Assembly (NCBI RefSeq): GCF_900169565.1 | Contig: NZ_LT828648.1 | Coordinates: forward strand, 124,001-188,000 | Source: Nitrospira japonica | Lineage (GTDB): Bacteria > Nitrospirota > Nitrospiria > Nitrospirales > Nitrospiraceae | DNA length: 64,000 nt | Direction: 5' to 3' | Shown here: positions 1 through 25,326 of the stretch, piece after piece | Numbering within the stretch: position 1 is the first letter of the stretch | Layout: every line of letters starts with the position of its first letter | Made by a program: the position numbers and the translations under genes | Notes under the pieces: generated by a model | Told to the model about the DNA's origin: nothing | Databases searched by the model: none | Seen by the model: only the letters and a program-made list of their open reading frames with translations

Positions 1-1711
1 TACCGAACGCAATGACTGCCGGATAGATGTAGGTCTCCCTGGGGATCGGGGGATTCAGGAACGTATAATAGAAAGCCGACACGGCCATCTTCCGTCCTGC
101 ATCGCCGTTGTGTCCGTCCCAGGCAAAGAACACCGTAGGCACATACTGGCCGACCTCAAAGAACGTGTCCTCATCGTAGTCCTGATCCTTCTTGTTCCCA
201 AGGGGGCGTTGGATCATGACGTACCACCGGCCGTTTTTCCACTCGGCCTTGAGGACTTTGAGGTTCTCCTCATAGGTGTCGCGTTCTTCAAAATCCTTGT
301 CCCATCCCGTTCCCTTGAAGGCTCGGATGGATCCATCCGCTTCCCACTTCACGATGTCGACCGGGAACTGCTCGTTGGTTCCGAACAGGTAGCGCGGCTT
401 GATCGGAGCCGGCAACTCCTTCCACTTGACCGGATGCTCGATCCCGATCGCGTCGTTGTACACGGTGTAGTTGTTCTGATGGGCCGCGATGGACCCTTCC
501 TCACCGGTCTTGGGATCCTGCTCCTTCACATCAACATTTACCTGCGTAGGCGCCCAAGGCAGCTTGCCTTCGGCCACGCTCTTGGTCCGGTCGTCCCACT
601 CCAATAGATACACGAGCGACTTTTCGTTATACAGAGCCCGAACCCAGATGTCGTCGATACGATTGACGAAGTTTCTCGGCTTGTGGGTGATCTGTCCGCC
701 CATCGCGACGTATCGGCGGGAGGCCTTTTGCCACGCCTCATTTTCGATATCGGCCGGAATTTCCCCTTCGACCAGATTCGCCGGCACCACGAAATTGATC
801 TTCGGCTTGTCGGTCAAGGGATCGATGGGAAGTGGATTTCCTTCGAGGTCCCGCTCGCACAACGAATTCACGAAGTTCGCAATATCCCACCGCTCGTCGA
901 CCGAGGTGTTATCCGCGAACGACGGCATCGGCGTTCCATTGACGCCAGTGGAGAAGGTTCGGAAAATGTTCTTCACATTGTACGGATCCTGGCGGCTTCC
1001 ACGGAAATTCCAGCACTTATGCCAGTTGGCCGGCTGAATCGAGAATCCCCAGTCATCCTTCAGGTTGAAGGCATTTCCATCTCCTCGCCCTTCAGTACCA
1101 TGACACTCAATACATTTCTTTTCGACGATGAGTTCTGAACCACGCTTCTTGCTTTCGTCATTTGCGGCTTTCGGCTTGATGTCGCCGAGCTGGAGCACCG
1201 TCTGTGTTTCCGACTGCTTGTCGGTGAACTTCCGGTCCTTCACCAATTGAGTCGTGACGAACGACAATACCTGAAGCCGTTGTTCCTCAGTCAAAATACC
1301 TTCCCAAGACGGCATGGCCGAGCCCGGCAAACCGTGCGTGACGGTCTCAAACAGGTCGTTCTGTCCAGCGACCGGCTTCTTCGCATCGAACAAGGGAAGC
1401 TCGCCGCTCGCCGTGTGACGGATCTTGAAAGTACCCTGATTGAAATTCCGAGGACGAGGCCACAGGCGGTCTGCACCGGGACCATCGCCCGCTCCATCGA
1501 CGCCGTGGCACCAAACACACTTCGTAAAGTAGACCCGCTTCCCCGCCTCGATCATCTCGGCGGAGGGCTCCGCGGCGAGATCGCCTTTTTTGAATCCCTC
1601 TGGCAATCCTTCCGCACCGACGACCGGTATGCCGATCTGTCCGGAGGCCAGGATGATGCCGAAGGCGGCAGCGGCGGCCACTCCTACCTTCTGACTTGCG
1701 CTCTTTCTCAT
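1..1711 (-). CDS. NxrC-like dihaem cytochrome c with C-terminal haem-b (EB_dh-type) domain, partial
   Basis: Open to the window edge, so the C-terminus is missing. ATG at 1711 follows an AGAGGA ribosome site, and a signal peptide covers roughly residues 1-33. Two c-haem sites are visible: CVWCH at residues 65-69 and CIECH at 200-204, each in its own class I cytochrome domain. From about residue 270 the sequence resembles the ethylbenzene-dehydrogenase/DMSO-reductase gamma haem-b domain, as in NxrC-type subunits of nitrite oxidoreductase. It is the last readable gene of a run starting at 6531 with a bd-like oxidase and two membrane cytochromes, so it probably passes electrons to that complex rather than acting as the true NXR gamma subunit. 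Family placement is fairly sure; the partner is inference. Confidence 0.85.
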   Translation of the reverse strand, partial: MRKSASQKVGVAAAAAFGIILASGQIGIPVVGAEGLPEGFKKGDLAAEPSAEMIEAGKRVYFTKCVWCHGVDGAGDGPGADRLWPRPRNFNQGTFKIRHTASGELPLFDAKKPVAGQNDLFETVTHGLPGSAMPSWEGILTEEQRLQVLSFVTTQLVKDRKFTDKQSETQTVLQLGDIKPKAANDESKKRGSELIVEKKCIECHGTEGRGDGNAFNLKDDWGFSIQPANWHKCWNFRGSRQDPYNVKNIFRTFSTGVNGTPMPSFADNTSVDERWDIANFVNSLCERDLEGNPLPIDPLTDKPKINFVVPANLVEGEIPADIENEAWQKASRRYVAMGGQITHKPRNFVNRIDDIWVRALYNEKSLVYLLEWDDRTKSVAEGKLPWAPTQVNVDVKEQDPKTGEEGSIAAHQNNYTVYNDAIGIEHPVKWKELPAPIKPRYLFGTNEQFPVDIVKWEADGSIRAFKGTGWDKDFEERDTYEENLKVLKAEWKNGRWYVMIQRPLGNKKDQDYDEDTFFEVGQYVPTVFFAWDGHNGDAGRKMAVSAFYYTFLNPPIPRETYIYPAVIAFG

Positions 1712-1761
1712 GTTTATCCTCTTCATCGTATGTCCAGGTTATCGAAAAAGCCTTCGGCGCA

Positions 1762-4230: not shown

Positions 4231-6147
4231 TTAATGGCTGCCTGCCGGCTGCGGCGCGCTTCCCGGAACTCCAGCCTTGGCTTCCACAGGTACTTTCTTC
4301 GCCGCCAAGCTGCCGAGCCAAAAGACGAAGAGAATACTGATCCAGAAAAACAGCACGTTGAACGAAATCATATTGGCGGCGAATCCCACCGTATGCGTAT
4401 AGGCCCACGGAGAGTTGTCGCGCATGATCTCATTGACGTGCCAGAAAAGGCGGACGGAAGAGCGGATGTAGCCCATCAGTCCCATCATCCAGGTAAACGC
4501 GGTTGCCAACATGATCAACGCGTACTGGGATCGCGCGGAGATCTTGCCCCACTCGATCGGCCCCATCTGCTTGGCGCCCTTCATCATCACGCTGTTCAGC
4601 GCGAACATGAAGAACAAGCATGACAATGTCGTGGCCACCTGAGGCACCGATAGGCCGACGCGCACGTTGGCCGGAATGTAATATCCATAGACCGCCAACC
4701 AAACAATGTTGATGTAGGCGCAGGCGAAGAATACGCCCATGAAAATGTTGCCGAACTTGGCCCAAGACACCGTCGAGACCTTGTTGCCTCGCATGTACCA
4801 TACGAAGCTCAAGACGGTCGTGGTGATGATCACATTGATGCCGCCGTTCTTCGCGGACATGACACCATAGTTACCCAAGACCGGATGCTGCTGACCGCCC
4901 ATCGCCTTCAGTTCGGCTGGCGTCATGACCATCGTGTGCGGCGTAATGAACACCAAGAATCCGCACGCGAGCAGGAACACGAGATACTTGATGTAGCGCT
5001 GATATTTTTCCGCTCCTCGCATCCGACCCATCGCCTGCCACAGGTAATAGTTGGTGCTGAGGAACAGAATGCCGATCATGGTCGCCTGAATGATGAACAA
5101 CCACGCCAGCAGGCCGCCCATGAGCGTGATGCCCATTTGCTGACGGTAGGCATACACTTCGCGCATGAGCCAGTAGCCGGCAAACGGCAACGGGATCAGG
5201 AACGCGACGCCGAGCGCCATCGCGATATAGCCCATCCAATCATAATGGGCACGGTCTTCTTCGGTCTTGGCCGCCAGGAACTTATAGGCCGCATAGGCCG
5301 CGACGACACCGCCACCGAAGGCCATATTGCCGAGAATGCGGTGCACGTTGAGAGGATTCCACAATGCGGTATGAATCACGTGCCAGATGTTGCCGAGGAA
5401 GCGACCCTGCTCATCGACTCCGGCCGGGGACATCATGAACCCGATCCAGGAATTGGCCAAGAACATCAGCAGCGTGCCGATGATGTTCAGGATGACGGAC
5501 ATGCTCAAGTGGATCCACTTGAGAAATCCCTCCTTCATCTTGTCCCAGCCGTAGTAGTAAATGTAGAGCGTTCCGCTCTCGGCCACGAACATCAACGCAT
5601 AGATATGCATGACGGGACGGAAGATGCTGGAGAGGTATCCGAAAAATGCCGGATAGAGAGTCAAGAACGTGAAGATCAAAATGCCGCCTAAAATTGCCGT
5701 CAACGAATAGGCCGTCAGACTGATCTTGATGAAGTCATAAGCGAGCTGGTCGTACCGCTTGGCGAGCGCCTTGTCCTTCGTCACCACGCCCATGAACTCG
5801 ATGACCATGCAGAAGATCGGAACAGCCAAGACGAAGCTGCCGTAATACAAATGCTGCTGGTTCGCAAACCAGAGCAACACGCGGCTCTCGAAGTTGTAGC
5901 GGGGATAGTCCTTCGGGCCGTCGGTCGTCTTGGGTGCCGGAGCGCCGGCCACAATGCCTTCGGTCTTGTAATAGACATCGCGCCCCTTCTCGACCTTGTC
6001 TCCCTCCTTCTTTGCCCCATCAGCCGCGGGAGCCTCTTCGCCGGATGCCAGCGTCGGCAGCGACATGACGATGGGAAACAGGAGGAGGCCAACCATCGCG
6101 CACAGCGCCATGATTGAAAACACTTTCTTTCGGGTTGCAAGACCCAT
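4231..6147 (-). CDS. cytochrome bd-like oxidase, large form (cluster A)
   Basis: 638 residues with about 14 membrane segments, much longer than E. coli CydA. ATG at 6147 follows a perfect AAGGAGG; the longer open frame to 6219 is not needed. An N-terminal hydrophobic segment and charged linker (residues 1-80) precede the CydA-like core. The core shows NQQH near residue 99, a WIH helix, the SWIGFMMSP motif and LWNPLNVH, reminiscent of haem-ligand helices of the bd subunit I family. No CydB neighbour is present. Large proteins like this have been proposed as the terminal oxidase of Nitrospira, which lack ordinary haem-copper oxidases. Here it is followed by three c-type cytochromes, so cytochrome c rather than quinol may be the donor (inference). 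Confidence 0.88.
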   Translation of the reverse strand: MGLATRKKVFSIMALCAMVGLLLFPIVMSLPTLASGEEAPAADGAKKEGDKVEKGRDVYYKTEGIVAGAPAPKTTDGPKDYPRYNFESRVLLWFANQQHLYYGSFVLAVPIFCMVIEFMGVVTKDKALAKRYDQLAYDFIKISLTAYSLTAILGGILIFTFLTLYPAFFGYLSSIFRPVMHIYALMFVAESGTLYIYYYGWDKMKEGFLKWIHLSMSVILNIIGTLLMFLANSWIGFMMSPAGVDEQGRFLGNIWHVIHTALWNPLNVHRILGNMAFGGGVVAAYAAYKFLAAKTEEDRAHYDWMGYIAMALGVAFLIPLPFAGYWLMREVYAYRQQMGITLMGGLLAWLFIIQATMIGILFLSTNYYLWQAMGRMRGAEKYQRYIKYLVFLLACGFLVFITPHTMVMTPAELKAMGGQQHPVLGNYGVMSAKNGGINVIITTTVLSFVWYMRGNKVSTVSWAKFGNIFMGVFFACAYINIVWLAVYGYYIPANVRVGLSVPQVATTLSCLFFMFALNSVMMKGAKQMGPIEWGKISARSQYALIMLATAFTWMMGLMGYIRSSVRLFWHVNEIMRDNSPWAYTHTVGFAANMISFNVLFFWISILFVFWLGSLAAKKVPVEAKAGVPGSAPQPAGSH

Positions 6148-6223
6148 GGGATACCTCCTTGATGCAATACGACAAAGACTCATGACAAAATTCCAAACTT
6201 TCGCGGAGTCGTAACTCACAGAC

Positions 6224-6651: not shown

Positions 6652-6756
6652 ATGACGAAGAACTCAAAAGTGTTCGACATTATAGTTTTGGCTGGTATGG
6701 TTGTCAATATAATTTTGGCCGTCTTTTTGATCCTCTACTACTTCGACTTCCTTTAA
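6652..6756 (+). CDS. 34-residue single-span membrane microprotein on the opposite strand
   Basis: Reads ATG at 6652 to TAA at 6756, with a weak GGGAAAA ribosome site. Residues 1-8 are polar (MTKNSKVF), and nearly all the rest is one hydrophobic helix ending in YYFDFL. It is the only plus-strand gene candidate in the first 25 kb. It lies between the two minus-strand oxidase clusters, and its stop overlaps the stop of the FGE-like gene at 6753 tail to tail. The composition and promoter support a real gene, although it is very short. It may be another small oxidase subunit or a membrane regulator; function unknown. Confidence 0.5.
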   Translation: MTKNSKVFDIIVLAGMVVNIILAVFLILYYFDFL

Positions 6757-7655: not shown

Positions 7656-7663
7656 AACCGGGG

Positions 7664-9671: not shown

Positions 9672-11543
9672 TCAAACCTCTTGCGATGGAATGGGCGCCA
9701 GCGCCGGCGATTTCTCGCCCTCGAATTCCTCTCCAAAAGCCTCCTGCTGCCCTCGCTGGCACATCCAGAACAGCGCAAACACCGCCCCCCAAAAGACCAC
9801 CATGTTGAGCGTGACCATCTTCGCCGCAAACTCGAGATCCGGTGTAAACGCCCACGGGGACACATCGGCCATCAAGTCGGTGACGTGCCACGACAAGCGT
9901 CCCGACGAACGGATATAGCCCATGAGACCCATCACCCATGTGAAGGCAGCCGCCAGTCCGAAGAGCCCGACCATGCCGCGGACGGGGATCTTGCCCCACT
10001 GGACCGGTCCATGGACGATCGCGTGTTTGAGCATGGCCCGGTTGATCAACACGGACGCAAGAATCACGGTCAAGGTCGTCACTGCCTGCGGTGCGGACAA
10101 ACCGACGCGTACCTTGGCCGGTAAGTAGAACCCATACAGCGACAGCCAGATCACATTGAGAAATCCCACCGCGAACAGCATGCCAATCGCAAGATTTCCC
10201 GTCTTGACCCAGGAGACGGTCATCGTGCGATTGGCCCGTCGGTAGTATAAGAAACTGAGCGAGGTGAGAAGAATCAGGATGTTGATGGCACCGTTCTTGG
10301 CCGACATGACCCCGTAATTTCCCACGACGGGATGTTGAGCCCCTCCCATCGCTTTGACCTCACCGGCCGACATCAACACCGTATGGGGCGTCAACCACAC
10401 GAATAGCGCGAGTGTCAGCGCGCCGAGGAGGATTTGATAATACGGCTGATACCTCTCCCCACCCTTGATCCGGGCCATGCTCTGCCAAATGTAGTAATTG
10501 ACGCCAAGAAAGAGCGCGCCGATCAGAAGCGCCTGCACGACGAACAACCACGTCAGCAATCCCCCCATCATTGTCACGCCCATGCTTTGGCTGAAGGCAT
10601 AGACGGACCGCATCAGCCAGTATCCGGCGATCGGCATGGGCAGCAAGGCGCACACCGTGACGAAGAGGAAAATGTAGCCGACCCAGTCGAAGTACGCCCG
10701 CTCTCCGTCCGACTTGCTGGTGAAGAACCGATAGCAGGCGTAGGCGAGCACGACGGCGCCTCCGGACATGATGTCCGCGAGGAGTCGATGGACGTTCAGC
10801 GGATTCCACAAGGCGGAATGCAGGAGGTGCCAACCATTGCCCAAAAACCGTCCCGTCGCATCCACACCGGCCGGCGCCATCATGAACGCGGACCACGCAT
10901 TGGCCAGCAGCAGCAGCGCGGTCCCGAAGATATTGGTCAAAATGCCGATCGCCGCGTGGATCCATTTCAAACCCGGTTCCGCCATGCGATTCCAGCTGTA
11001 ATAGTAGAGAATCAACAACAGCGACTCACCGACGAACACGATGGCGTAGGCGGGCATGAAATCTTTGAACGTTCCCCCCATGTACTTCATGAAACTCGGG
11101 TAGAACCAGATGAACATGCCCAGCATGAAACTTCCGACCACTGCCGTGACCGATAGGGCCAAGAGTGCGACCTTTGCCAAGTCCCTCGCCAGTCCGTCGT
11201 ATCGAAGCGACAGGGAAGGATTTTTTGTGAGGAGTCCGATAAATTCCAGCAAGGCGCAAAACAAGGGCAGTGCAAGGACGAATCCCCCGAAATAGGTGTG
11301 TTGTTGCGTCACGAACCACACCAGCAATCGGCTGTCCATCGAACCGATTCGCGAATAGACCGTTTCATGAGGCGTCGGAGCCGGCGGCCCTTGCGGGGTA
11401 CCTTCCGTCTTGAAATAGATATCGGCGCCGCCATCGGCCGTCGCGGAAGGGGTGATCCCCGCCCACCCGCCGGCGACGATCAGCAGACCGACAAAGAACA
11501 CCGGCACAACTGCACGCGCAAATCCCGTCTGTGAGGCAGCCAT
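9672..11543 (-). CDS. cytochrome bd-like oxidase, large form, second paralogue (cluster B)
   Basis: 623 residues, about 14 membrane segments, clearly a paralogue of the cluster A oxidase. It shares the QQH motif of the first core helix, ANAWSAFMMAPAGVD, LWNPLNVH, a TPHTVLMS loop and a GNYGVMSAKNG block. The start at 11543 gives an N-terminal signal-anchor helix and leaves a four-base gap to the upstream gene; the open frame continues to 11618, but that would overlap the neighbour. No CydB or small cytochrome follows it. Instead its neighbours are DUF420, PCP_red and DUF3047 proteins. Different partners from cluster A suggest a different electron donor, acceptor or regulation. Confidence 0.86.
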   Translation of the reverse strand: MAASQTGFARAVVPVFFVGLLIVAGGWAGITPSATADGGADIYFKTEGTPQGPPAPTPHETVYSRIGSMDSRLLVWFVTQQHTYFGGFVLALPLFCALLEFIGLLTKNPSLSLRYDGLARDLAKVALLALSVTAVVGSFMLGMFIWFYPSFMKYMGGTFKDFMPAYAIVFVGESLLLILYYYSWNRMAEPGLKWIHAAIGILTNIFGTALLLLANAWSAFMMAPAGVDATGRFLGNGWHLLHSALWNPLNVHRLLADIMSGGAVVLAYACYRFFTSKSDGERAYFDWVGYIFLFVTVCALLPMPIAGYWLMRSVYAFSQSMGVTMMGGLLTWLFVVQALLIGALFLGVNYYIWQSMARIKGGERYQPYYQILLGALTLALFVWLTPHTVLMSAGEVKAMGGAQHPVVGNYGVMSAKNGAINILILLTSLSFLYYRRANRTMTVSWVKTGNLAIGMLFAVGFLNVIWLSLYGFYLPAKVRVGLSAPQAVTTLTVILASVLINRAMLKHAIVHGPVQWGKIPVRGMVGLFGLAAAFTWVMGLMGYIRSSGRLSWHVTDLMADVSPWAFTPDLEFAAKMVTLNMVVFWGAVFALFWMCQRGQQEAFGEEFEGEKSPALAPIPSQEV

Positions 11544-11547
11544 CGCG

Positions 11548-12600
11548 TCAGACCTTTGATGTTGATGGCGCGGCCAAAGAGGCACCCGCGCCGGACTTTC
11601 CCAATATACCCATGACAAACGGACAGCGGAGCATCGCCGTGCTCACTTCGGGTGCTTGTTGATCCTCAATATGGCGACGGTGGCCTAGATAATAGCCGTA
11701 CAAACCCATCAGCGCCCCGACTATTCCGCCGGCCGCCGCCGCACACCACGTTGGAACACCCGGCTCTCTTGCCACAAAGATGACAACACCCGCCGCAACC
11801 AGGTAATAGGTCGAGGCAAACGCCATACCTGGCCACCACCAGTACTTCAGGGACTCGCTGAGCTTGGTGCCGAGCAATCCGGAAGTCCACGGTACTTGCG
11901 GTCGAACGCCGCTGAAATACGCGCCCAAGGCAATGGTTCCTCCCACCAGGGTGACTGCGGTCACTTGCACGATCAGCGCGAGCTGGCCTGTCTGCACACC
12001 GTGCCCCAGAGAGGCCACGAGAGCTCCGGCGAGCAGACCCGTCGCGACCCAGGGTCGCCATGGTGCAGATCGGGAGCCGATCAATTCACGCAACGACGCT
12101 CCGTTGGGAAAGGTGGTGAACGGCCGTCCCATGATCTGCATTTTCCTGACATGTCCGATCTCAAACGCATCACGGGCCACGGCCGTACAGGAAATGATCA
12201 TGGCCATCATCGCCGGACCATCGGGATGTTGGAGATAATCATAGCCAACGAGCCAGAGCAGCGAAAGAACGAGAAGAGACAACTGCACCCCATAGGCAAA
12301 ACCGATCCAACCGGCAATCCAACTCAATAGGCCCGCACCGTCTTGCTCGCCCATGGTCCGCCAGTCGGAGGCACGACCGACGCGATAGGCAGCCGCGGCG
12401 GTCACGACTCCCAGCGCTCCGCAGGTCACGAGGAGAACCCAGGGCTCCGACAACGGCAGGACGTGCTTGGCCAGTCGATAGCATCCGAAGGCCACCATAC
12501 CCGGCGCAAACATGACGATCCGCTTTTTCTTGCGGACTGCGTCCTCCGTGACGGCCAGACTGAGGCTGGGCAAGACCCGCAACACCATCCGATGCAACAT
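11548..12600 (-). CDS. polytopic membrane protein of unknown family
   Basis: 350 residues with about eight to nine membrane segments and a central hydrophilic loop (near residues 155-185, containing RPFTTFPNG). TAAGGA lies just before the ATG at 12600. Charged RKKKR near residue 25 sits before the first span. The gene abuts the bd-like oxidase (four bases) and the PCP_red gene (five bases), so translation is probably coupled. No haem-binding CxxCH or obvious metal site is seen. I cannot name the family; a membrane subunit of the cluster B complex is the most economical guess. Confidence 0.75.
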   Translation of the reverse strand: MLHRMVLRVLPSLSLAVTEDAVRKKKRIVMFAPGMVAFGCYRLAKHVLPLSEPWVLLVTCGALGVVTAAAAYRVGRASDWRTMGEQDGAGLLSWIAGWIGFAYGVQLSLLVLSLLWLVGYDYLQHPDGPAMMAMIISCTAVARDAFEIGHVRKMQIMGRPFTTFPNGASLRELIGSRSAPWRPWVATGLLAGALVASLGHGVQTGQLALIVQVTAVTLVGGTIALGAYFSGVRPQVPWTSGLLGTKLSESLKYWWWPGMAFASTYYLVAAGVVIFVAREPGVPTWCAAAAGGIVGALMGLYGYYLGHRRHIEDQQAPEVSTAMLRCPFVMGILGKSGAGASLAAPSTSKV

Positions 12601-15047: not shown

Positions 15048-15842
15048 TTACTTGATTTCAGCCTTGAGGTTCGCCGTTCCGCCTTCCGGAACTTCGACCT
15101 CGAACTCCACCTTCTTGCCCTTGGCGGCGAACGGATGCCAGGCCACGACCTTATGCTTGCCGGCCGGCACATCCTTGAGTTCAAACGATCCGTCTTCCTT
15201 CACCACGACGAAATGCGGATTCGTCACGGGCAGGAAGAAGGACTGCATGAACTCGTGCTGGTCGCACTGCAACCGATAATAGCCTTCCTTCTCCGCGCCT
15301 CCGCGGAAGGTCACCGGCTTGTCCAACTTGTCGCCCTTCTTGGCAAGACCGATGTTGAAACCGGTCGCCGAGGTCGAACCCTTCACGGTGAAGCTATGCG
15401 GATTGTGCAATACGCCCGCGGTCGACTTGGGATCGTCAGGATCCGAATCGGTATTTTCAACCTTGAACGGCCTGGTATTCACCACCACACCGCTGAAAGG
15501 CAGAAATTCGCAAAAGGCCGCCGTCACTTCCGTTCCTGCATACCCGTCCACGAAGGCCTTGTCTTCAATGTCGGTAACAGCCACGACCGCACCCTTCAAG
15601 CCCCCGTCCTTGCCGACCTCGACGGTCTTCAAGAACCGCTTGTCGCCGTCCATCAAGGACTTGTTGGGGTTCTTCGGGCAGAACTTGGGGTTCGGGAACT
15701 TCGAGAAGAGAAACTCTTTCTGCTCGGACTTCCCGCCGTAGGTAACCTTGCCGGAGATGGTTCCACCGGCAAATGAGATGACAGGCGTCGCAATGAACGC
15801 GACGGCTGCCACACCGAATACGACTGATAACGCACTCTTCAT
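15048..15842 (-). CDS. secreted cupredoxin-like protein with carboxypeptidase-regulatory-like domain (paralogue 1)
   Basis: 264 residues, signal peptide to about residue 25. An early beta strand block GGTISGKVTYGG resembles the regulatory beta-sandwich of carboxypeptidases. In the middle H146 (VLHNPHSF) and the C193-x2-H196-x2-M199 cluster (LQCDQHEFMQ) have the order of type 1 copper ligands in cupredoxins. The end (SFELKDVPAGKHKVVAWHP) is again carboxypeptidase-regulatory-like. The ATG has AAGGAGG upstream. It is transcribed alone, with its own strong promoter (15992-16019) and terminator (14975-15012), so it may be abundant. Two relatives lie at 18275 and 19227. Likely a periplasmic copper electron carrier; this is inference. 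Confidence 0.78.
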   Translation of the reverse strand: MKSALSVVFGVAAVAFIATPVISFAGGTISGKVTYGGKSEQKEFLFSKFPNPKFCPKNPNKSLMDGDKRFLKTVEVGKDGGLKGAVVAVTDIEDKAFVDGYAGTEVTAAFCEFLPFSGVVVNTRPFKVENTDSDPDDPKSTAGVLHNPHSFTVKGSTSATGFNIGLAKKGDKLDKPVTFRGGAEKEGYYRLQCDQHEFMQSFFLPVTNPHFVVVKEDGSFELKDVPAGKHKVVAWHPFAAKGKKVEFEVEVPEGGTANLKAEIK

Positions 15843-15991: not shown

Positions 15992-16019
15992 TATATAAAA
16001 TTTTACCGTATGCTGTCAA
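15992..16019 (-). promoter_or_regulatory. strong promoter of the first cupredoxin-like gene
   Basis: Minus strand TTGACA at 16019-16014, then TATATA at 15997-15992 with a 16-base spacer (TATACA with 18 is an alternative). A perfect -35 box and an A/T-rich spacer. The leader to the ATG at 15842 is about 140 bases. The -35 box overlaps the stop codon of the HEAT-repeat gene. Confidence 0.65.
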
Positions 16020-17404
16020 TTGCCGACAACCGGGTGAAAACCGCTCTTGGAAGACCGTTTGCCTTGCAGTAGACGCAGAATGGCCCCTCCGGCGGTTGTC
16101 CGAACGGCCTCGTTTTGGTCATGGAGCGCCTCTTTCACGAGCAGCAGCACCGAGGGATCACCGATTCTTCCCAGTGATCTGACGGCCACAATCTTCGGCC
16201 CCGGGAGCGGATCCGTAGACAGATTCCCAAGGAACGACAGGGCGCCGGGCACGTTGCCTTTTGAGGCTTTACCCAAGGCATGCGCGGCCGAGGTCCTTGC
16301 CCCCGGATCGCTCTGTTGGGTCAACCCCCGTATCGTCGGCGCCACAGTCTCAAACGGTTGACCGAGCTGAAGCAATGCGGCGGCCGAAGCGGCCCGCACG
16401 GAAAATACCCCGTCCTGAAGCGCCTGATCGAGAGCCGGGACCGAGGCGTCATCGCCAAGATCGGCCAGAGCCGAGGCCGCGGCTTCGCGGACGGCCGGCA
16501 CGGGATCGCGCAACAGTCGTTGAATGTCCTCGCGTGCCTCCCGTCGCCCCAGATGTCCCAACCCCCTGGCCGCGGCCCCTCTGACCGAGGGCTGCTTGTA
16601 GCTCAGCGACTCCAGCATGATCGGTACCGCGCGCCGGTCTTTCACGTCCGCCATCACCCGGATCGCCTCGGCGCGGTCCTCCGGATTCACCGCATCCGCT
16701 GCCCGACGCAGCGCGTCCCAGGCTTCTGCGCGTCCGTGCCGCAAGAGCGCGCCGAACGCGGCGATCCTGACCGTCGGCAATTCGTCCTTTGAAGCCTTTT
16801 CCAGCAGAGGAACGACGGACGGATCGCTGCTGCGTCCCAGCGCCTTGACCACACGGGCCTTGACGAGCCCGGCTTGATCGTCAAGGGCTGCCCGCAATTT
16901 CGGCGATTTCCGTCCGGCTTCGGTTCGACTCAACCCTTCCACCGCAAGCATGCGAACAGGACCCGACCCGTCGCTGAGTCCGTCCTCAAAATAGGGGATG
17001 AGCTCTTCCGAGTCGGCTTCCTTCAAGGCCGTAAACGCCGCCCCTCGCATCTGTTCGCGCATATCCTTCAACATCACGGTAATGAATCCCAACGCGACAT
17101 CCCGAAGCAGCGGCGTCTCATCTTGATTGGCGACTCGCTCAAGCCGGTCATATTCCTCCAAGGCCTCCTTGGGATTACCCAATTTCAGCAGCGATCGAAC
17201 CTTGAGCCGGCGAACGTCGGACGCGGAGGATGCTGCGCCGTCCAGCTTGGCAATTTCATCCAATACGGTTTGGTATTGCTGCTTGTCGTACAATCGCTGA
17301 ATCTCGCCCGGCACAGCGGCCAGCGCCACAGCTCGGTCCGGGCCTATCCCCACCGCGATCGTGAGTGCGACCGCCAGCCATATCCGATTCACCACGTCGG
17401 TCAT
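16016..17404 (-). CDS. secreted HEAT-repeat protein
   Basis: 462 residues from ATG at 17404, which has GGAGG eight bases upstream. A signal peptide covers about residues 1-30. An alpha-helical region with a TPR-like block (LLKLGNPKEALEEYDRLER) is followed by about nine HEAT/PBS-lyase-like repeats with the recurring pattern VR-x2-AA-x2-LG-x-LG (for example VRGAAARGLGHLG, VREAAASALADLG, VRAASAAALLQLG). Such repeats are protein-interaction scaffolds. It is read with the upstream unknown secreted protein (gap 26 bases). A periplasmic assembly factor for the neighbouring copper proteins is possible but unproven. Confidence 0.8.
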   Translation of the reverse strand: MTDVVNRIWLAVALTIAVGIGPDRAVALAAVPGEIQRLYDKQQYQTVLDEIAKLDGAASSASDVRRLKVRSLLKLGNPKEALEEYDRLERVANQDETPLLRDVALGFITVMLKDMREQMRGAAFTALKEADSEELIPYFEDGLSDGSGPVRMLAVEGLSRTEAGRKSPKLRAALDDQAGLVKARVVKALGRSSDPSVVPLLEKASKDELPTVRIAAFGALLRHGRAEAWDALRRAADAVNPEDRAEAIRVMADVKDRRAVPIMLESLSYKQPSVRGAAARGLGHLGRREAREDIQRLLRDPVPAVREAAASALADLGDDASVPALDQALQDGVFSVRAASAAALLQLGQPFETVAPTIRGLTQQSDPGARTSAAHALGKASKGNVPGALSFLGNLSTDPLPGPKIVAVRSLGRIGDPSVLLLVKEALHDQNEAVRTTAGGAILRLLQGKRSSKSGFHPVVGN

Positions 17405-17430
17405 CTGATGCCTCCGGAATTCACAAACCG

Positions 17431-18063
17431 TTATCCCTGTCGCTTCTTGGTCGTACCGATGCTGCGCTTCCGATACCCCGGCGGCTCGTCGAAGTAGAAG
17501 GAAGGCTGCGGCGAGAACCGGATCCGTTGATATTCGAACGTCCAATCACGGTCCCGGCTCACCAGTTTCAAGACAATACCGGTTTCCACGTCCACCCACT
17601 CGTAGAATCGTTCGACCCGTCCGTCCTTTTCCGTTTGCACTTCATACAGACGCGTCGGCCGCCCTGCCGCCGTCGCGTCACCCACCAGCACGCGTTCGCG
17701 CTCTCCCGATAGTTCGGATTGGAACGGGAGGACGTCATCGGCATCGAGCGGCATGATCAAGAGCTCTTTTTGCTGTGCGAGAACATACCAGGCTTCTCCT
17801 AAGTCGAGCCTGATGATTTCGATTGCGGCATAGCCATGATCGGTGCGAACGGCATATTTGTATTCCAACCGCAGCCGGTTCCCTTTTGAAAAAATCTGGG
17901 CCTGATGTCGTTGGCCGTTCACCTGCCTGACAAGGCTGCCGGAAAAATCGGGGGTTACCGGAGAGGATTCCGGCTGGGCGGAACCCGCCGAGGTTGTGAG
18001 GCACAGGGTCATCGCAAGCACAAGACCGAGATATCTCGATGTCTTCGCACAGGCACTCCGCAT
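17431..18063 (-). CDS. secreted protein of unknown function
   Basis: 210 residues from the ATG at 18063, which gives a convincing signal peptide (YLGLVLAMTLCLTTSAGSA). The mature part is rich in beta strands: FSGSLVRQVNG, a QAQIFSKGNRLRLEYK block, YVLAQQKELLIMPL, and an aromatic end FYFDEPPGY. The layout recalls the DUF4412/LolA-like group of outer-membrane-lipoprotein-handling folds, but I cannot assign it. The ribosome site is weak. Read into the HEAT-repeat gene with a 26-base gap. Confidence 0.65.
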   Translation of the reverse strand: MRSACAKTSRYLGLVLAMTLCLTTSAGSAQPESSPVTPDFSGSLVRQVNGQRHQAQIFSKGNRLRLEYKYAVRTDHGYAAIEIIRLDLGEAWYVLAQQKELLIMPLDADDVLPFQSELSGERERVLVGDATAAGRPTRLYEVQTEKDGRVERFYEWVDVETGIVLKLVSRDRDWTFEYQRIRFSPQPSFYFDEPPGYRKRSIGTTKKRQG

Positions 18064-18274
18064 GACCCGCGCGAGTCGGCCCCATCGTCGCTCAGACCGG
18101 CGCTCTAGCGAGGGTCGAGGCCCGGACTCCACATGACAAGCGGCCCGGACGGCAATTCCCGTAGCATGCTGCCCGATCATCTTGGGAGAACTTTGAGGTA
18201 TGACGCGATCGCTGACAGGGTGCGCATCACGCCAATAGAGATGGCAGGCTGACCCGCGATCGAATCCGCACCTC

Positions 18275-19201
18275 TTACTGTTGGTGTTCGACAAGCGGGG
18301 TAATCTCGACGGAGTAGCCGAGGGATTCGGGGCCAAAACGGGGATTGTGCATGACTTTGTAGGGAGTACGATTCCCTTTGGGCGCCGGTAGTGACAACTG
18401 TTCAACGATCGTGCCGTTCGGTTGTACAGTTATCATCTTTGCGGAACCGGGCCCCGTCTGGGGATGCCACACGACCAATTGGTAGGTGCCGGGGGGAACG
18501 TCCCCGATGGTGAATTTCCCGTTTCCGTCGGTCAGCGTGTAATAAGGATTGTTGACCGCCATGGCCCAACTCTCCATGTAGGCGTGAAATCCGCACTGCA
18601 TGTAGAACGTCCTGCGCCCCTTGTTGAGATAGACGGGCCCGACGAGCGACTTACCCGGGGCATGATTGTGAATGGCGTGAAGATCGCCGCGCCTGTGCTG
18701 CTGGTTCATGACCAACGGCGTGTTGAATAACACCCGCGCGCCCGCCTCGATGGAAGTCTCGTACCCTTGAATGTCGTGCATGACGGGATCCATGTTGATG
18801 ACTTCCACGGCATGGCCGTTGCGCACGATCGTCACGAACGGCGTGAACATGCAATCCCGGGCCTCGATCAAGGGAACGGACACCTCGAACGGCTTGCCCG
18901 CTTCGACGCCCTCCAGCAAGACGATCGCATCCTTGAGACCGTTGTTCTCGCCCACGACGAAATCGTGAAGCAGCCGCCACCCCTGCCCGTTTGAGATGCG
19001 ACCGCAATAGGCCGGGTCCGGGAACGTGATGAGATTGAATCCCTTGGGCTCCGGGACCGGCCCATCAAGGACCACCGTACCTTCGATGGTCCCTCCGCGC
19101 TGCACGTCGACCACGTTATAGGAAAAAGCAGGGGCAGAGGACCAACTCCAGAATAACCCCATACACGCGAACACAACGAGTACGGATCGCTTTGGCGTCA
19201 T
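18275..19201 (-). CDS. secreted cupredoxin-like protein with carboxypeptidase-regulatory-like domain (paralogue 2)
   Basis: 308 residues from ATG at 19201 (AGAGGGGGG upstream), signal peptide to about residue 27. It has RGGTIEGTVVLDG, then PDPAYCGRIS with a shared cysteine, a copper-like histidine H142 in NMDPVMHDIQ, a histidine-rich loop (NQQHRRGDLHAIHNH), and C203-x2-H206-x2-M209. The end GKFTIGDVPPGTYQLVVWHP is a carboxypeptidase-regulatory-type strand pattern. It is about half identical by eye to the next gene, which points to tandem duplication. The NMDPVMHD block matches the first-ligand histidine of cupredoxins. Probably a periplasmic copper protein. Confidence 0.8.
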   Translation of the reverse strand: MTPKRSVLVVFACMGLFWSWSSAPAFSYNVVDVQRGGTIEGTVVLDGPVPEPKGFNLITFPDPAYCGRISNGQGWRLLHDFVVGENNGLKDAIVLLEGVEAGKPFEVSVPLIEARDCMFTPFVTIVRNGHAVEVINMDPVMHDIQGYETSIEAGARVLFNTPLVMNQQHRRGDLHAIHNHAPGKSLVGPVYLNKGRRTFYMQCGFHAYMESWAMAVNNPYYTLTDGNGKFTIGDVPPGTYQLVVWHPQTGPGSAKMITVQPNGTIVEQLSLPAPKGNRTPYKVMHNPRFGPESLGYSVEITPLVEHQQ

Positions 19202-19226: not shown

Positions 19227-20138
19227 TCAAGGAATCTGAAGTTCAAGCGTAGGCCTGATGTCGACGGACTTCCCCAGAGCCTGCAATCCAAAATGCGGGT
19301 TCTCTTCGATTTCATGCGCACTGCGGCGTCCTTTGGGTGATTCAAACAGGAAATCCGCCCTCACCGTTTCCTTGGCGGGAACGGTAATTTTCTGCTCCAG
19401 GACAATTCCGACGCCCGGGTGCCAGGCAGTCAGCAAGTACTCGCCAGCCGGGACATCGGTCAATGAGAAAGAGCCGTCTTTTCCGGTCACGTGATAATAA
19501 GGATTCTCGACGGCCAACCCCCAACTTTCCATGTAGGCGTGAAATCCGCATTGCATGACGAAAAACTTCCGGCCTTTCGTCATGCGAATGGTCTCCTTGA
19601 TCGGCTCGCCAGCGAGATGTTCATGAGAGTCGGCCCCGACATTCCGCTTGTGATGAGGATTCATGGGAAGGGGGGTGTTGAACAGGACGCGAGGCCCCAA
19701 ATGGGACGTTTCATAGGCTTGGATGTCGTGCATGACCGGGTCCATGTTCATGATCACGACGTCCGCTCGATCTTGGACGACCGTCACGAATGGTAGAAAC
19801 CGACAATCCCTTGCTTCGATCGTTTGCGGTTCAAATTTGAACGGTTTCCCCTTTGGAACATCCGAAAGCAACACGACAACGTCCTTGAGTCCTCCGTCGG
19901 CCGCCACCTCGAATTCCTTCAGAATGCGCCAGCCGGTGCCTGTTGAAATTCGTCCGCAATAGACGGGATCGGGAAACGTAATCAAGTTGAACCCCTTGGG
20001 TGTGGGTTTCCCGGATGTCATCTTGACCTTTCCTGTGACAGTACCTCCATCTACGACCTGCGCCTCTTCATAGGCCCAACCCAGCGACGCGCCCACCGCC
20101 AACCATGACCAGAGAGCTATTATCACCACCCGTTTCAT
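19227..20138 (-). CDS. secreted cupredoxin-like protein with carboxypeptidase-regulatory-like domain (paralogue 3)
   Basis: 303 residues from ATG at 20138 after GGAGGGTG. Signal peptide to residue 22. It carries the same architecture as paralogue 2: GGTVTGKVKM, PDPVYCGRIS, H137 in NMDPVMHDIQ, a histidine loop (NPHHKRNVGADSHEH), C197-x2-H200-x2-M203 and a SLTDVPAGEYLLTAWHP-like end. The gap to paralogue 2 is 25 bases, so they are probably co-transcribed. It lies just downstream of the giant multicopper oxidase and its terminators. Donor or acceptor of that oxidase is a natural guess. Confidence 0.8.
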   Translation of the reverse strand: MKRVVIIALWSWLAVGASLGWAYEEAQVVDGGTVTGKVKMTSGKPTPKGFNLITFPDPVYCGRISTGTGWRILKEFEVAADGGLKDVVVLLSDVPKGKPFKFEPQTIEARDCRFLPFVTVVQDRADVVIMNMDPVMHDIQAYETSHLGPRVLFNTPLPMNPHHKRNVGADSHEHLAGEPIKETIRMTKGRKFFVMQCGFHAYMESWGLAVENPYYHVTGKDGSFSLTDVPAGEYLLTAWHPGVGIVLEQKITVPAKETVRADFLFESPKGRRSAHEIEENPHFGLQALGKSVDIRPTLELQIP

Positions 20139-20212: not shown

Positions 20213-20241
20213 AAAAAGGGGGAGGCCACAAGGCCTCCCCC
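20213..20241 (-). terminator. rho-independent terminator downstream of the multicopper oxidase
   Basis: Ten-pair GC-rich perfect stem (20218-20227 with 20232-20241), four-base loop, and TTTTTCTTT directly after it on the minus strand. Second of two hairpins after the oxidase stop at 20326. Confidence 0.85.
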
Positions 20242-20282
20242 TAATCCACATTTGCAGAGCAATGAATGAGCGGGAACAAAAT

Positions 20283-20325: not shown

Positions 20326-23300
20326 TTATTTCGCCGCGACCGGAATCGCATGCGCCGCCTGTTCAAGCGACGCGCTCTTCATCCCGGCACCGGCACCGGC
20401 CAACGGCAACAACCGCTGGTCGCCGGCCGGCAATACGCGCAGGTAGCCCCACTGACCGGATTGGGAATACGGCAACCGCTGGTTGCTGTACACGTAATCG
20501 CCCGGCAATCGGTAGGGTCCACCGGCTGACGACACGAACGCATCGAGCACTTCCGAGCCGGAGAACTCGACCACGCTGATCTGGTCGGCACCCCGCATGA
20601 AGGGCTCGATCGGCCATTCATGTTTCTCGATGCTGAACATGCCGTTCTGTTCATTGTTCGCCCCGATGACGTGAATTCGAACCGGATCGCCCGCGTGCGA
20701 CTCGATGATGGGAGTCGCAGGATCTTCCGGCTTGTCCGCCTTACAGGGCTGGAATACTTTACCCAATGAACAACCCTGTTCTTCACGATACTTGTACGGC
20801 TCCGACCGATAGTTGATACCAGTCAGGCCCGCGACATTCTGCACGTACGGCATGAAGCTCGTGCCGATGATGTTGTCTTCGTCTTGGAAGAACAACGCCA
20901 CGTCGCGATAGTTGGCTCTCATCTCATTGCCCGGCACGGTACGATCGATGATCACGTCCGCTGCCCAGGCATTCTTGTTCGTCAAATCCGCGCCGGTCTT
21001 CGGATCCCGATACTTGGAACCCTTCGGACCGACCACAACCGCCCCGAACAATCCGTTGCGTGGATTGGTCATGACATTGCCCCAATCCCACACCAGAGAC
21101 GTGGTCTCGCCGTTGAACGGATCCGCGTAGTACGTGTAGGTCCGTTCTCCGCCGGACGCAATCGTTTGATCGCCGGGGTTGTTGCCGACGTTCGCACCCA
21201 TCGAATCCTTCGGATCAAAGGCCAATCCGATGGCCGAGAAGGACGCCTTGCTGGCCTTCATCTTGTTTTTCAGATTGACTTTGACGCAATCGCCGATATT
21301 GACGCGGAGCGTCAGCGGCATCGGGTGCGCTTCTCCTGACACCTTGGCGACATCCTCCTCCAGGGCGTAGATCTTGGCCTCGGGATTGGTGATCTGGATC
21401 TTCCGCTCGAAGTCCACCTCGATCGACTCGGGCGCCTTCGCGTTGAACTTCATGGACGGATAGTCCATCGCCACCACGTTGAAGGTCTTGACCGGCGCAT
21501 CAGCCGGACAAACCGGTAACGCCTTCGGGATTTCGCCTTTGACGGAGAATCCGGCCGGCAGCTTCTTCAGATCGGGCTGCTCCTTGTCGTACACACGGAT
21601 AATGCCCCAGCCGCCCTCCGAAAACTTCGAGGACCGGCCGTTGAAGTGGATATAGTCCCCGGCCAGATGCCGAGGGCCGCCGGCTTCCGGCACGACCAGG
21701 TCGTACCGTTCGGCAATTCCGATATGGATCGAGTTCTTGCGGTTCGCATCCGACGCATAGCGCTCAGACCAGAAGGTGTGACCGGACAAGGTCCAAGTCA
21801 TCGTCTCGTTCATGAGCGTATGCAGAAGACGGAATACCATCGTGTCTCCCGTATACGCGCGCAAAAGCGGCGTGTAGGGATCCCCGTGAATCTGGCTGTT
21901 GAAGGCCTGCGAGACATCGGGATTGGTCGCCAACCGCTGTGCGATCGGACCCGCGCGGAAGTTCAAGCCGCTTCCCGTCGTGTGGGTGCCGCCGTTCAGG
22001 AACGGCATCGGCGTCATGTACAGCTTTTCCGGCATCATGAACGAGACGGTCTTACCCGCCTCCAATGCCACTTCGATCGGCTGACCCGGCGGATTGCCGG
22101 CCGTCACGATGTTGACGGTATGCGGTACCGTATCGTGCACCTGCACCATCAGTTCGCGGAAGCTGTTGTTCACGCCGTGTCCGACCGGCTCGTTGGTATG
22201 GATGTCGGCGATCGGGCCGCTCCACACCAGTTTTCCGGTCTTCGGATCGTGATAGGTCGAGCCGACCGGCTCGGCGATGAACGTGCCGAACCCGCCGTGC
22301 GGCCACGTCGTCGCGCCGAAAGCGTGATCGTGCCAGAACACCGTTCCCACGTCCGCATCAACCCAGAACCGCTGCCGGACGAATTCCACCGTCACGATGT
22401 CGTTCGCCGGATGATCGTTCTTGAGTCCCTTGGCCAACGTGAGCGTGTTGCCACTGATGGCCTTGATCCGGGACACCTCGTTGCCTTTCACGTTATCGGC
22501 TCCCACGAGGATCAGAATGCCCACATGGTACTGCTTGGCATTCTTCACCGTGAGGGTGGTCGAGCCCTTCTTGGCGGCGGCCGACAACACCGTATTCATC
22601 GGAGCCGGAAGGCCCTTGCCGTTTTTCTTTTCCAGCATCGTGAACGGACGCACGGACTGTTCATACGAGAAGCCCGTGATCACGCCGTCCGACGCCTGGT
22701 TGTCGAACTGCAGGAAATGCCAATGGGTATTGATCTTTGACGACTGGAAATTCGTGTAGTCGTCGTCGTCCCACTCGCTGGTCAACGTCCAATCGACGCA
22801 GTCATAGATGTTGCCGCGGACCACCAGCGGATACTTGAGATCGTCATTCGCCCGGATGGCCGCCTCTTCTTCATGAAGCACGTAGATCAGCCCGTTCGGG
22901 TCCACGACCGGCGGCTCCTTGCCTTGCGCCTTGGCGATCTTGATCGGCAATTTGATGAAGTGCACGTTGTAGCTCTTGCGCCCGGCGTTGACCGGACACA
23001 GGCTCCAGTTGCCCTGCTCGCCCGGCGCAGCCTGATCAACGCTTTCCTCGCCGTTGGCATCGCGGCGGATCATCTCCAACCAAGGCGCCCCGACGTGGTT
23101 CGGCGAGAACATGACGCGTTTGCCGAAGTGCGGTGTCAAATGCGGCCACGCCACCTTCCCTGTCAACGGCTCGAACATAATCGGGTGCCGCTTGCCGGGA
23201 TGGCTCGACTTGTACTTGGGGTTGTCGATCGTGCTTTCCTTCTCGCTCATGGCACGACCACCTTCCCACGTCCAGTCGAGCACCGTGGCATCATAGGAGA

Positions 23301-25170
23301 CGATCTGACCCTTTTCGTCGTCCTTGTGTCCGGGCTTCCCTGAAGTAGGAAGCTGCATTTCGACCCAATCCTTGATCGTAATGGTGGCCGGGTTTCCCTT
23401 CCAGTTGCTCTTGCCTTTTTCCACAATTTTGAACTGGGTCCCGAACCAATCGACGGTCTGGCCGATCAACTTGTCGGATGAAACCGGAGTCTTGATGCGG
23501 CCTTTGCGATCGGGAAGCTCGCGCAGATCCGGCATCACGTCGTTCCGCAGGTCTCCCTGCTGGATCGTGTTGTACACGCGCCAGTATCCCCACATGCCCG
23601 CGACATAATGGTGCGCCACGTGGCAATGGAAGAGGAAATCGCCGGCCAGCTGCTGACAGAGTCCTGATCCGCACTCCGTTTCCAGGTCGAGCGCCTCAGA
23701 CGGGCCGATGACCTCGACGTCGACGCGATCGGTCTTGGCACGAATCACCGGATACTTGACCGGTCCGTTCACCGCGGTGGCCCACAGGTTCATATCGTCG
23801 ATCGCCCGCGGACTGCGCGGCCATCGAATCGTTCCCCCATGCGGATGGTGGCTGTGGAACACTTCCGAGCCGCCGTGCACCAGCCGGAACTTCGCGGGAT
23901 CGCCCATGTAGGAACGGGGAATCGTCGGAGAAGGATCGCCGAACGTGTAGGAGCTGTACCCCATCGATTCATCTTCGAAACCGAAGTACTCGTGCTGCAC
24001 GTGCATGTTGTTGATGCCGAAGGGCTCGCTGCGATAGTTGATCGCACGACCGCCCGGACGGTAAGCGTCGGTCAGGGGGTCACGCTGAGGAAGAAAATCG
24101 CCCTTCTTGTTGACCGGCCGAAACGCCTCGTCGCCGACTTCGTGATAAATCAGGACGAATTCACGGAAGTCCGGGCCGGTGCCATTCTGAATCATCACCT
24201 GCCAGCCGCTGTTTGCAGGCGTCGCATCTCCGGAACCGAGCGCCTCGAGATAGTTCGATCCCCTGGGCTCGACGACGAACGCGCCGAACATGCCCATGAC
24301 GGTCAGTTCGCGATCCTGGCTGAACGTATGGAACTGGCGGACGCCTTCCTGGGTGCTGGGGTGGATATACCACTCGAAATCAACGGTCTTCTTCTCATCG
24401 ACGATGGTATCGGGATTGGTCGTCGTCGCCGCGGCACCCGTGGCGGTCACGACCATGCTGGATCCATGGATGTGCAGGCTGACCGGTCCGCCGCCTTCTT
24501 CCAGCTTATTGGTCAACTTGATCTTGACGCAGTCACCCTGGTTGCCGCGTATGACCAGCGGCTGAATCCACTGCGCCTGCACGCCCGGAATCACAGCTCC
24601 AGGATCGAACCCTTCCTTTTCACGAGCATCCTTGTTCTTAGTCTCTTCCGCCCGGACTTTATCGAGATTCTCCTCGAGTGCGTACATGTACCCGGGATAG
24701 TAATCCAGCCACTGATTGAGAGTAATCTCGACGTTGATGGCGGCGACGTTATATTGCTTGACCGGTGCGGCGGCAGGGCACTTGCCCCCTCCCGTCGTGG
24801 AAACGGGCTCCACTCGTGGATCGGATACCAGGAGCATGTCCTGTCCACCGGCTCCATACTGATGCATCATGGAGGTGGTGTTGTACATGCCGGTATTGAT
24901 GCCTTGAACCTGCGGGTCTTGAGCCAGATGCTCCATGACGCGCTGGTGCTGCTGCTCGACCATTGCGGCCCGCTGCCCGTTTCCGGACATCGTATCTTCC
25001 ACAATAGTCTGTCCCTTGAGCTGCTCCGCCCACGCAGGGAGTTGATGCGTCATCGCGACGTGCGATGTGGAGTCCTCAGCGGATGCAAACGGGGCCCAGA
25101 GTAGAGCCGCAAGTGCGGTTGCGCCGAGGATGCGGGTAAAAACACGATCCTCTGCCTTGTGAAAAACCAT
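20326..25170 (-). CDS. giant secreted multicopper oxidase, MnxG-like
   Basis: 1614 residues; ATG at 25170 has AAGGAGG eight bases upstream, signal peptide to about residue 30. Copper motifs in order: LHIHGSS (232-238), HTF at 281, HSHHPHG (439-445), HCHVAHHYVAGM (515-526, a type 1 plus type 3 signature with Met axial ligand), then a second set THWH (815-818), WHDH (946-949) and GATTWPHGG. A small beta module with AKKGSTTLTV and GADNVKGNEVSRI blocks (about 860-930) is inserted before the second set. Cupredoxin-type blocks continue to the end without another HCH. Length and THWHFLQFD/ASDGVITG features recall the manganese-oxidase MnxG type, but the substrate is unknown. It has its own promoter and two terminators. 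Confidence 0.86.
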   Translation of the reverse strand: MVFHKAEDRVFTRILGATALAALLWAPFASAEDSTSHVAMTHQLPAWAEQLKGQTIVEDTMSGNGQRAAMVEQQHQRVMEHLAQDPQVQGINTGMYNTTSMMHQYGAGGQDMLLVSDPRVEPVSTTGGGKCPAAAPVKQYNVAAINVEITLNQWLDYYPGYMYALEENLDKVRAEETKNKDAREKEGFDPGAVIPGVQAQWIQPLVIRGNQGDCVKIKLTNKLEEGGGPVSLHIHGSSMVVTATGAAATTTNPDTIVDEKKTVDFEWYIHPSTQEGVRQFHTFSQDRELTVMGMFGAFVVEPRGSNYLEALGSGDATPANSGWQVMIQNGTGPDFREFVLIYHEVGDEAFRPVNKKGDFLPQRDPLTDAYRPGGRAINYRSEPFGINNMHVQHEYFGFEDESMGYSSYTFGDPSPTIPRSYMGDPAKFRLVHGGSEVFHSHHPHGGTIRWPRSPRAIDDMNLWATAVNGPVKYPVIRAKTDRVDVEVIGPSEALDLETECGSGLCQQLAGDFLFHCHVAHHYVAGMWGYWRVYNTIQQGDLRNDVMPDLRELPDRKGRIKTPVSSDKLIGQTVDWFGTQFKIVEKGKSNWKGNPATITIKDWVEMQLPTSGKPGHKDDEKGQIVSYDATVLDWTWEGGRAMSEKESTIDNPKYKSSHPGKRHPIMFEPLTGKVAWPHLTPHFGKRVMFSPNHVGAPWLEMIRRDANGEESVDQAAPGEQGNWSLCPVNAGRKSYNVHFIKLPIKIAKAQGKEPPVVDPNGLIYVLHEEEAAIRANDDLKYPLVVRGNIYDCVDWTLTSEWDDDDYTNFQSSKINTHWHFLQFDNQASDGVITGFSYEQSVRPFTMLEKKNGKGLPAPMNTVLSAAAKKGSTTLTVKNAKQYHVGILILVGADNVKGNEVSRIKAISGNTLTLAKGLKNDHPANDIVTVEFVRQRFWVDADVGTVFWHDHAFGATTWPHGGFGTFIAEPVGSTYHDPKTGKLVWSGPIADIHTNEPVGHGVNNSFRELMVQVHDTVPHTVNIVTAGNPPGQPIEVALEAGKTVSFMMPEKLYMTPMPFLNGGTHTTGSGLNFRAGPIAQRLATNPDVSQAFNSQIHGDPYTPLLRAYTGDTMVFRLLHTLMNETMTWTLSGHTFWSERYASDANRKNSIHIGIAERYDLVVPEAGGPRHLAGDYIHFNGRSSKFSEGGWGIIRVYDKEQPDLKKLPAGFSVKGEIPKALPVCPADAPVKTFNVVAMDYPSMKFNAKAPESIEVDFERKIQITNPEAKIYALEEDVAKVSGEAHPMPLTLRVNIGDCVKVNLKNKMKASKASFSAIGLAFDPKDSMGANVGNNPGDQTIASGGERTYTYYADPFNGETTSLVWDWGNVMTNPRNGLFGAVVVGPKGSKYRDPKTGADLTNKNAWAADVIIDRTVPGNEMRANYRDVALFFQDEDNIIGTSFMPYVQNVAGLTGINYRSEPYKYREEQGCSLGKVFQPCKADKPEDPATPIIESHAGDPVRIHVIGANNEQNGMFSIEKHEWPIEPFMRGADQISVVEFSGSEVLDAFVSSAGGPYRLPGDYVYSNQRLPYSQSGQWGYLRVLPAGDQRLLPLAGAGAGMKSASLEQAAHAIPVAAK

Positions 25171-25262
25171 GGACTGGCCTCCTTGGTGTTGATGGGTAAC
25201 GAAAAACAGAACTCGTGCGGGAGAGGATGAACTCGGTATCACGGTCGAACCTAAATCAAATT

Positions 25263-25297: not shown

Positions 25298-25326
25298 AAT
25301 GTACTGAACTCGGCAACCTCTGTCAA
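25298..25326 (-). promoter_or_regulatory. sigma70-like promoter of the multicopper oxidase
   Basis: Minus strand TTGACA (25326-25321), exactly 17 bases, then TACATT (25303-25298). Predicted start near 25291, giving a leader of about 120 bases to the ATG at 25170. Confidence 0.65.

Follow-up and report, generated by a model that had tools for sequence, protein, structure and literature searches.

A multicopper oxidase of six cupredoxin domains is encoded on the minus strand of the window, the 64,000-nucleotide stretch of the Nitrospira japonica genome that was analyzed. The protein has one complete multicopper-oxidase site, with ligands permuted in order, predicted to lie where domains 2 and 3 meet, as in the arrangement of MnxG. 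The family is near-universal in the class Nitrospiria, and its function does not hinge on nitrite oxidation. The anatomy and general mechanism of the enzyme are well supported; that it is an exported oxidase of the MnxG/ceruloplasmin kind, with a housekeeping role in the oxidation of periplasmic metal ions with O2, we consider about evenly balanced. The oxidase is a multi-copy, uncharacterized enzyme of the most widespread nitrite oxidizers, and the class also holds manganese lithotrophs.

Gene, protein and copper site

The open reading frame runs from a start at 25170 to a stop at 20326 and encodes 1614 residues; a first-pass annotation, made from the sequence of the window, had given these same coordinates, length and start, all of which were borne out. 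The N-terminus is a hydrophobic leader (signal peptide of about residues 1-31), from which export is predicted. In a Pfam scan only Cu-oxidase_3 exceeded its cut-off, and the domain borders used here are estimates from alignments. The protein had been called longer than typical manganese oxidases, which holds against Bacillus MnxG (about 1217-1228 residues) but not against Pseudomonas MnxG (about 1920-1970 residues) or most relatives of the window oxidase, which span 1600-1850 residues.

Four ligand motifs (Table 1) provide a type 1 (T1) copper site and eight histidines of a trinuclear cluster. The T1 ligands H439, C516, H521 and M526 all lie in domain 2; the cluster ligands are divided, half in domain 2 and half (H816/H818 and H947/H949) in domain 3. 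All 12 copper ligands, the lack of which the first-pass annotation had held to count against a multicopper oxidase, are present, and 12/12 are invariant in alignments of about 40 relatives spread over many phyla in both domains of life, comprising paralogues, orthologues and distant homologues and excepting two wrongly called frames (L073 and L074) that break the pattern. The active-site domains 2 and 3 are also the best conserved parts of the protein. The T1 assignment of H521 was checked independently, as this residue aligns with an alanine of the MnxG structure 9bxa, which is titled 'Mnx H340A'. Two apparent sets of copper ligands had been proposed. Only one full set is conserved, and the histidine pair of domain 1 (H233/H235) varies among relatives, which rules out a second set.

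The small beta module described earlier as lying between two ligand sets sits instead within domain 3, between the HWH and HDH motifs (about residues 851-932). Searched alone, this insert had no significant Pfam or PDB match, and it is missing from the divergent homologues L044 and L045. The insert of L040, L041 and L046, from three genomes in a different family of Nitrospirales, contains a LysM-like stretch (PF01476, E of about 1e-14 in the two inserts scanned), which would suggest that those orthologues attach to the cell wall.

AlphaFold2 was run on residues 128-1215 with an alignment of 31 distant homologues; the mean pLDDT was 48, and the model was therefore not used for site geometry. 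Prediction of the first neighboring cupredoxin-like protein from three window sequences gave a pLDDT of 46.5, and this model was set aside too. A Foldseek search with the low-confidence oxidase model returned MnxG first, with ceruloplasmin among the matches, and is taken as supporting evidence only.

Table 1. Positions, within the window, of the oxidase gene, its motifs and signals, and neighboring genes.
Feature	Positions	Strand	Basis or remark
Six-cupredoxin-domain multicopper oxidase gene	20326..25170	minus	ORF; Pfam Cu-oxidase_3; phmmer to MnxG 9bxa; hydrophobic leader
HxxHxH: H439 (T1), H442, H444 (trinuclear cluster), domain 2	23839..23856	minus	Invariant in alignments
HCHxxxHxxxxM: H515, H517 (cluster), C516, H521, M526 (T1), domain 2	23593..23628	minus	Invariant in alignments
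HWH: H816, H818 (cluster), domain 3	22717..22725	minus	Invariant in alignments
Beta-type insert of about 80 residues, domain 3	22375..22620	minus	Sequence comparison; no Pfam match
HDH: H947, H949 (cluster), domain 3	22324..22332	minus	Invariant in alignments
Sigma-70-like promoter TTGACA-17-TACATT	25298..25326	minus	Kept in 26/29 relatives
Shine-Dalgarno AAGGAGG, conserved start context	25178..25184	minus	Upstream comparison of relatives
13-bp stem-loop past the stop codon	20283..20313	minus	Hairpin scan
11-bp intrinsic-terminator-like hairpin, then T-run	20217..20242	minus	Hairpin scan
Cupredoxin-like protein 1 with CarboxypepD_reg domain	19227..20138	minus	Likely T1 ligands H137, C197, H200, M203
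Cupredoxin-like protein 2	18275..19198	minus	Architecture as in cupredoxin-like protein 1
Exported protein, conserved neighbor	17431..18084	minus	No Pfam match; start uncertain
HEAT-repeat protein, conserved neighbor	16016..17545	minus	Start uncertain
Cupredoxin-like protein 3	15048..15842	minus	
Cytochrome bd-like oxidase subunit I-type protein	9672..11618	minus	Oxidase gene cluster
Second cytochrome bd-like protein	4231..6219	minus	
Alternative NxrC-like protein	1..1726	minus	Two cytochrome c stretches and EB_dh; cut by window edge

Relationship to characterized oxidases

The nearest solved structure by sequence (phmmer) is MnxG 9bxa (E=1.7e-83), and full-length homology together with the permuted motif order places the protein in the MnxG-like superfamily of six-domain multicopper oxidases. 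Identity to proven manganese oxidases is below 30%. Against NF041487, the equivalog model of Pseudomonas MnxG, the window oxidase scored 137.4 bits, below the cut-off of 3100; a Pseudomonas protein (L118) used as positive control scored 3867 bits. Against TIGR01480 (CueO/PcoA), whose members are of three-domain size, it scored 20 bits (cut-off 479). In a tree, the Nitrospiria copies grouped with sequences from Chloroflexota and one Streptomyces sequence in a Nitrospiria-centered clade apart from that of MnxG, where a betaproteobacterial sequence (L068) was found; the deep branching order is uncertain, since the tree was made by a quick method and has long branches. The earlier description as MnxG-like thus stands for the superfamily, whereas the low equivalog score and separate clade do not support MnxG orthology, which was rejected.

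Copies and distribution

The 4.08 Mb single-contig genome carries three copies of the oxidase, the other two (C1:751012-755820, L035; C1:1039715-1044580, L036) being 73% and 68% identical to the window copy. The oxidase was found in 59 of 61 relatives, with one to four copies per genome. Across a phylum sample it was detected in 122/296 genomes with strong matches confined to the class Nitrospiria; among the genomes listed, all members of the class matched, and negatives and weak matches fell outside it. Closer kin (39-47% identity) occur in 5/301 Chloroflexota genomes. Only distant kin were seen in 301 genomes of the order of one betaproteobacterial relative. In a genome-contig scan with a three-row alignment, MnxG-like oxidases were also seen in Methanoperedens, the anammox organism Jettenia and Geobacter (L061, L069 and L074), lineages regarded as anaerobic, which is puzzling for an O2-dependent enzyme.

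NxrB matches were obtained in 22/22 near-complete Nitrospirales, with fragments only in G243; as this case indicates that NXR copies can go missing from assemblies, the lack of an NxrB match in another genome (G010) was left uninterpreted. Fifteen members of the class outside Nitrospirales carry the oxidase and have no NxrB match, which rules out a link to NXR as a requirement. Cupredoxin-like neighbors are retained at most of the non-Nitrospirales loci read, and the oxidase/cupredoxin module is therefore independent of nitrite oxidation. In N. japonica itself NxrB is present in three copies of identical protein sequence (G000:C1:759646, 884213 and 2095965), and the same genome encodes a NirK-like protein that, as read from its sequence, is fused to a cytochrome c-like C-terminus (L003, 1243-2721).

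Transcription signals and gene neighborhood

The first-pass annotation had credited the gene with its own promoter, a palindrome and a double terminator. The promoter was found in 26/29 upstream regions, against 0.002 expected per shuffled sequence, a null of mononucleotide shuffles to which related, and hence not independent, upstream sequences were compared; an extended motif is kept in 20 relatives. The start context AAGGAGGCC-GTCCATG is conserved, and 25/29 upstream regions have AGGAGGC close to the start. The palindrome CGCGATTATCGCG is indeed present at 25275-25263, but it occurs in 1/29 relatives, which rules it out as a conserved operator. Both downstream stem-loops were located. Since terminator-like matches in the whole region are near shuffle level (11 versus 7.8 +- 2.9), it is their strength and position that support them; as terminators between the oxidase and the first cupredoxin-like gene, they argue against a single transcript. 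No RNA family was found by Rfam over positions 1-33000, and no report of expression of this gene was found in the literature.

Downstream follow two cupredoxin-like genes, the gene for the exported protein (carrier-like, by reading only), the HEAT-repeat gene, the third cupredoxin-like gene, and genes for a methyltransferase, DUF420 and PCP_red. The cluster continues with a bd-like oxidase, two FGE-domain proteins, the second bd-like protein, two cytochromes c and the NxrC-like protein, which is whole in L183. By their own family assignments, the neighbors belong to families other than MnxE/MnxF. H137, C197, H200 and M203 of the cupredoxin-like proteins are kept in 52/52 sequences and plausibly form a T1 site. 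At most loci examined the oxidase adjoins a cupredoxin-like gene; loci with no such neighbor in the stretch read are L035, L036, L050-L052, L171 and L173. A second oxidase copy adjoins a NirK-like gene and nxrB, and copy B adjoins a NirK-like gene in two genomes. FGE-sulfatase-like proteins also lie near oxidases at several loci (window, 6753-8581; L036, 6677-7657; L042, 12035-12988; L043, 11372-12253; L050, 4186-5142); NirV, found beside nirK, has the same fold and may offer a parallel. At L044 (3981-13563) a very divergent oxidase of 1718 residues is followed by a 915-residue protein in which CusF, cytochrome c and periplasmic-binding domains are combined, and then by a cytochrome-d1-like propeller.

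Proposed function and alternatives

The copper-loaded enzyme would accept electrons one at a time at its T1 copper in domain 2, and the His-Cys-His bridge would carry them to the trinuclear cluster that domains 2 and 3 share, where O2 would be reduced to water. The electrons may come from Mn(II), Cu(I) or Fe(II) ions in the periplasm, and the enzyme would then either detoxify copper or yield Mn(III) that protects against oxidants. Multicopper oxidases take up electrons at T1 and pass them on to O2, and the neighboring cupredoxins are consequently unlikely to accept electrons, as had been suggested; they would be donors, copper carriers or unrelated, and most likely supply copper or electrons. 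No CueO/PcoA-type three-domain oxidase was found among the Pfam matches of this genome. The remaining matches belong to NirK-type proteins or to the family's third copy, leaving no other evident Cu(I) or metal oxidase. This, together with independence from NXR, is why housekeeping metal oxidation is preferred.

Two narrower forms of metal oxidation overlap with the preferred reading. Oxidation specifically of Mn(II), with Mn(III) as an oxidant shield, was proposed in 2013 for Nitrospina and Nitrospira (PMC3578206) and agrees with MnxG being the nearest solved structure and with the two novel multicopper oxidases encoded by manganese-oxidizing Ca. Manganitrophaceae (PMC9040806). The authors of the latter study nevertheless favored Cyc2 and PCC_1 for manganese oxidation, the tree splits the family deeply from MnxG, and the family is near-universal in nitrite oxidizers without known lithotrophic manganese oxidation. 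We regard this form as possible but somewhat unlikely, a likelihood that is not to be added to that of the broader reading. A Cu(I) oxidase standing in for CueO would suit a genome with no detected CueO/PcoA-type oxidase and a neighborhood rich in copper proteins, yet three copies of 1600 residues far exceed the need that CueO meets, and CueO/PcoA have been reported from many nitrifiers in a survey (PMC13374858), where the oxidase would then be redundant; this we judge unlikely.

Equally doubtful is a cupredoxin or cytochrome c oxidase, in which a T1 cupredoxin would feed electrons of the respiratory chain into a soluble, periplasmic, O2-reducing side branch. Cupredoxin-like genes are adjacent even in genomes without NXR, bd-like oxidases and an NxrC-like protein belong to the gene cluster of the window copy, and the second copy lies beside nxrB and a NirK-like gene. 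Such a branch would, however, conserve no energy, the loci named above have no cupredoxin neighbor in the stretch read, and no six-domain multicopper oxidase is known to use a cupredoxin donor. Ceruloplasmin is also reported as a nitric-oxide oxidase (NO to nitrite). A similar activity here is very improbable: the NirK-like neighbors of copy B and the ceruloplasmin match of the low-confidence model would fit, but the family occurs also where NxrB was not found. A broader and quite speculative idea is that oxidase and T1 cupredoxin form an ancestral, NXR-independent, O2-reducing pair in the periplasm of the class Nitrospiria, fed by the respiratory chain or scavenging NO. With its copper ligands mapped and with a conserved promoter and a cupredoxin partner, the oxidase lends itself directly to expression and assay.

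Comparison with known systems

Ceruloplasmin is likewise a six-domain multicopper oxidase, matched by Foldseek with the low-confidence model. Its identity to the window oxidase is about 9%, and its active site lies between domains 1 and 6, whereas that of the window oxidase is predicted between domains 2 and 3. Bacillus MnxG (9bxa) and a Priestia homologue (L056) share the six cupredoxin domains, the permuted ligand order and the 12 aligned ligands. Bacillus MnxG differs in being shorter, in lacking the domain-3 insert and in its identity of about 28%; it has MnxE/MnxF as partners (PMC5622069). With Pseudomonas MnxG the fold class and ligands are held in common, but the score (137 bits against 3100) and the clade set the two apart.

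The window gene cluster resembles the alt_NxrC_2/bd-like_3/bd-like_4 cluster of N. moscoviensis (PMC6606698). A 2025 paper on the comparative genomics of the order does not use the word 'multicopper' in its main text. A periplasmic MnxG-like multicopper oxidase was described in 2013 in the NXR gene cluster of Nitrospina and Ca. N. defluvii, being highly conserved in the latter (PMC3578206), which limits the novelty of the present findings; new are the single site with its permuted ligands, the existence of paralogues, the near-universal occurrence, the association with cupredoxins independent of NXR, the conservation of the promoter, the variants carrying LysM and the placement in a clade of its own. 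By description that protein is like the window oxidase, periplasmic, MnxG-like and accompanied by bd-like oxidases and NXR-type genes, and the window gene is probably its Nitrospira counterpart.
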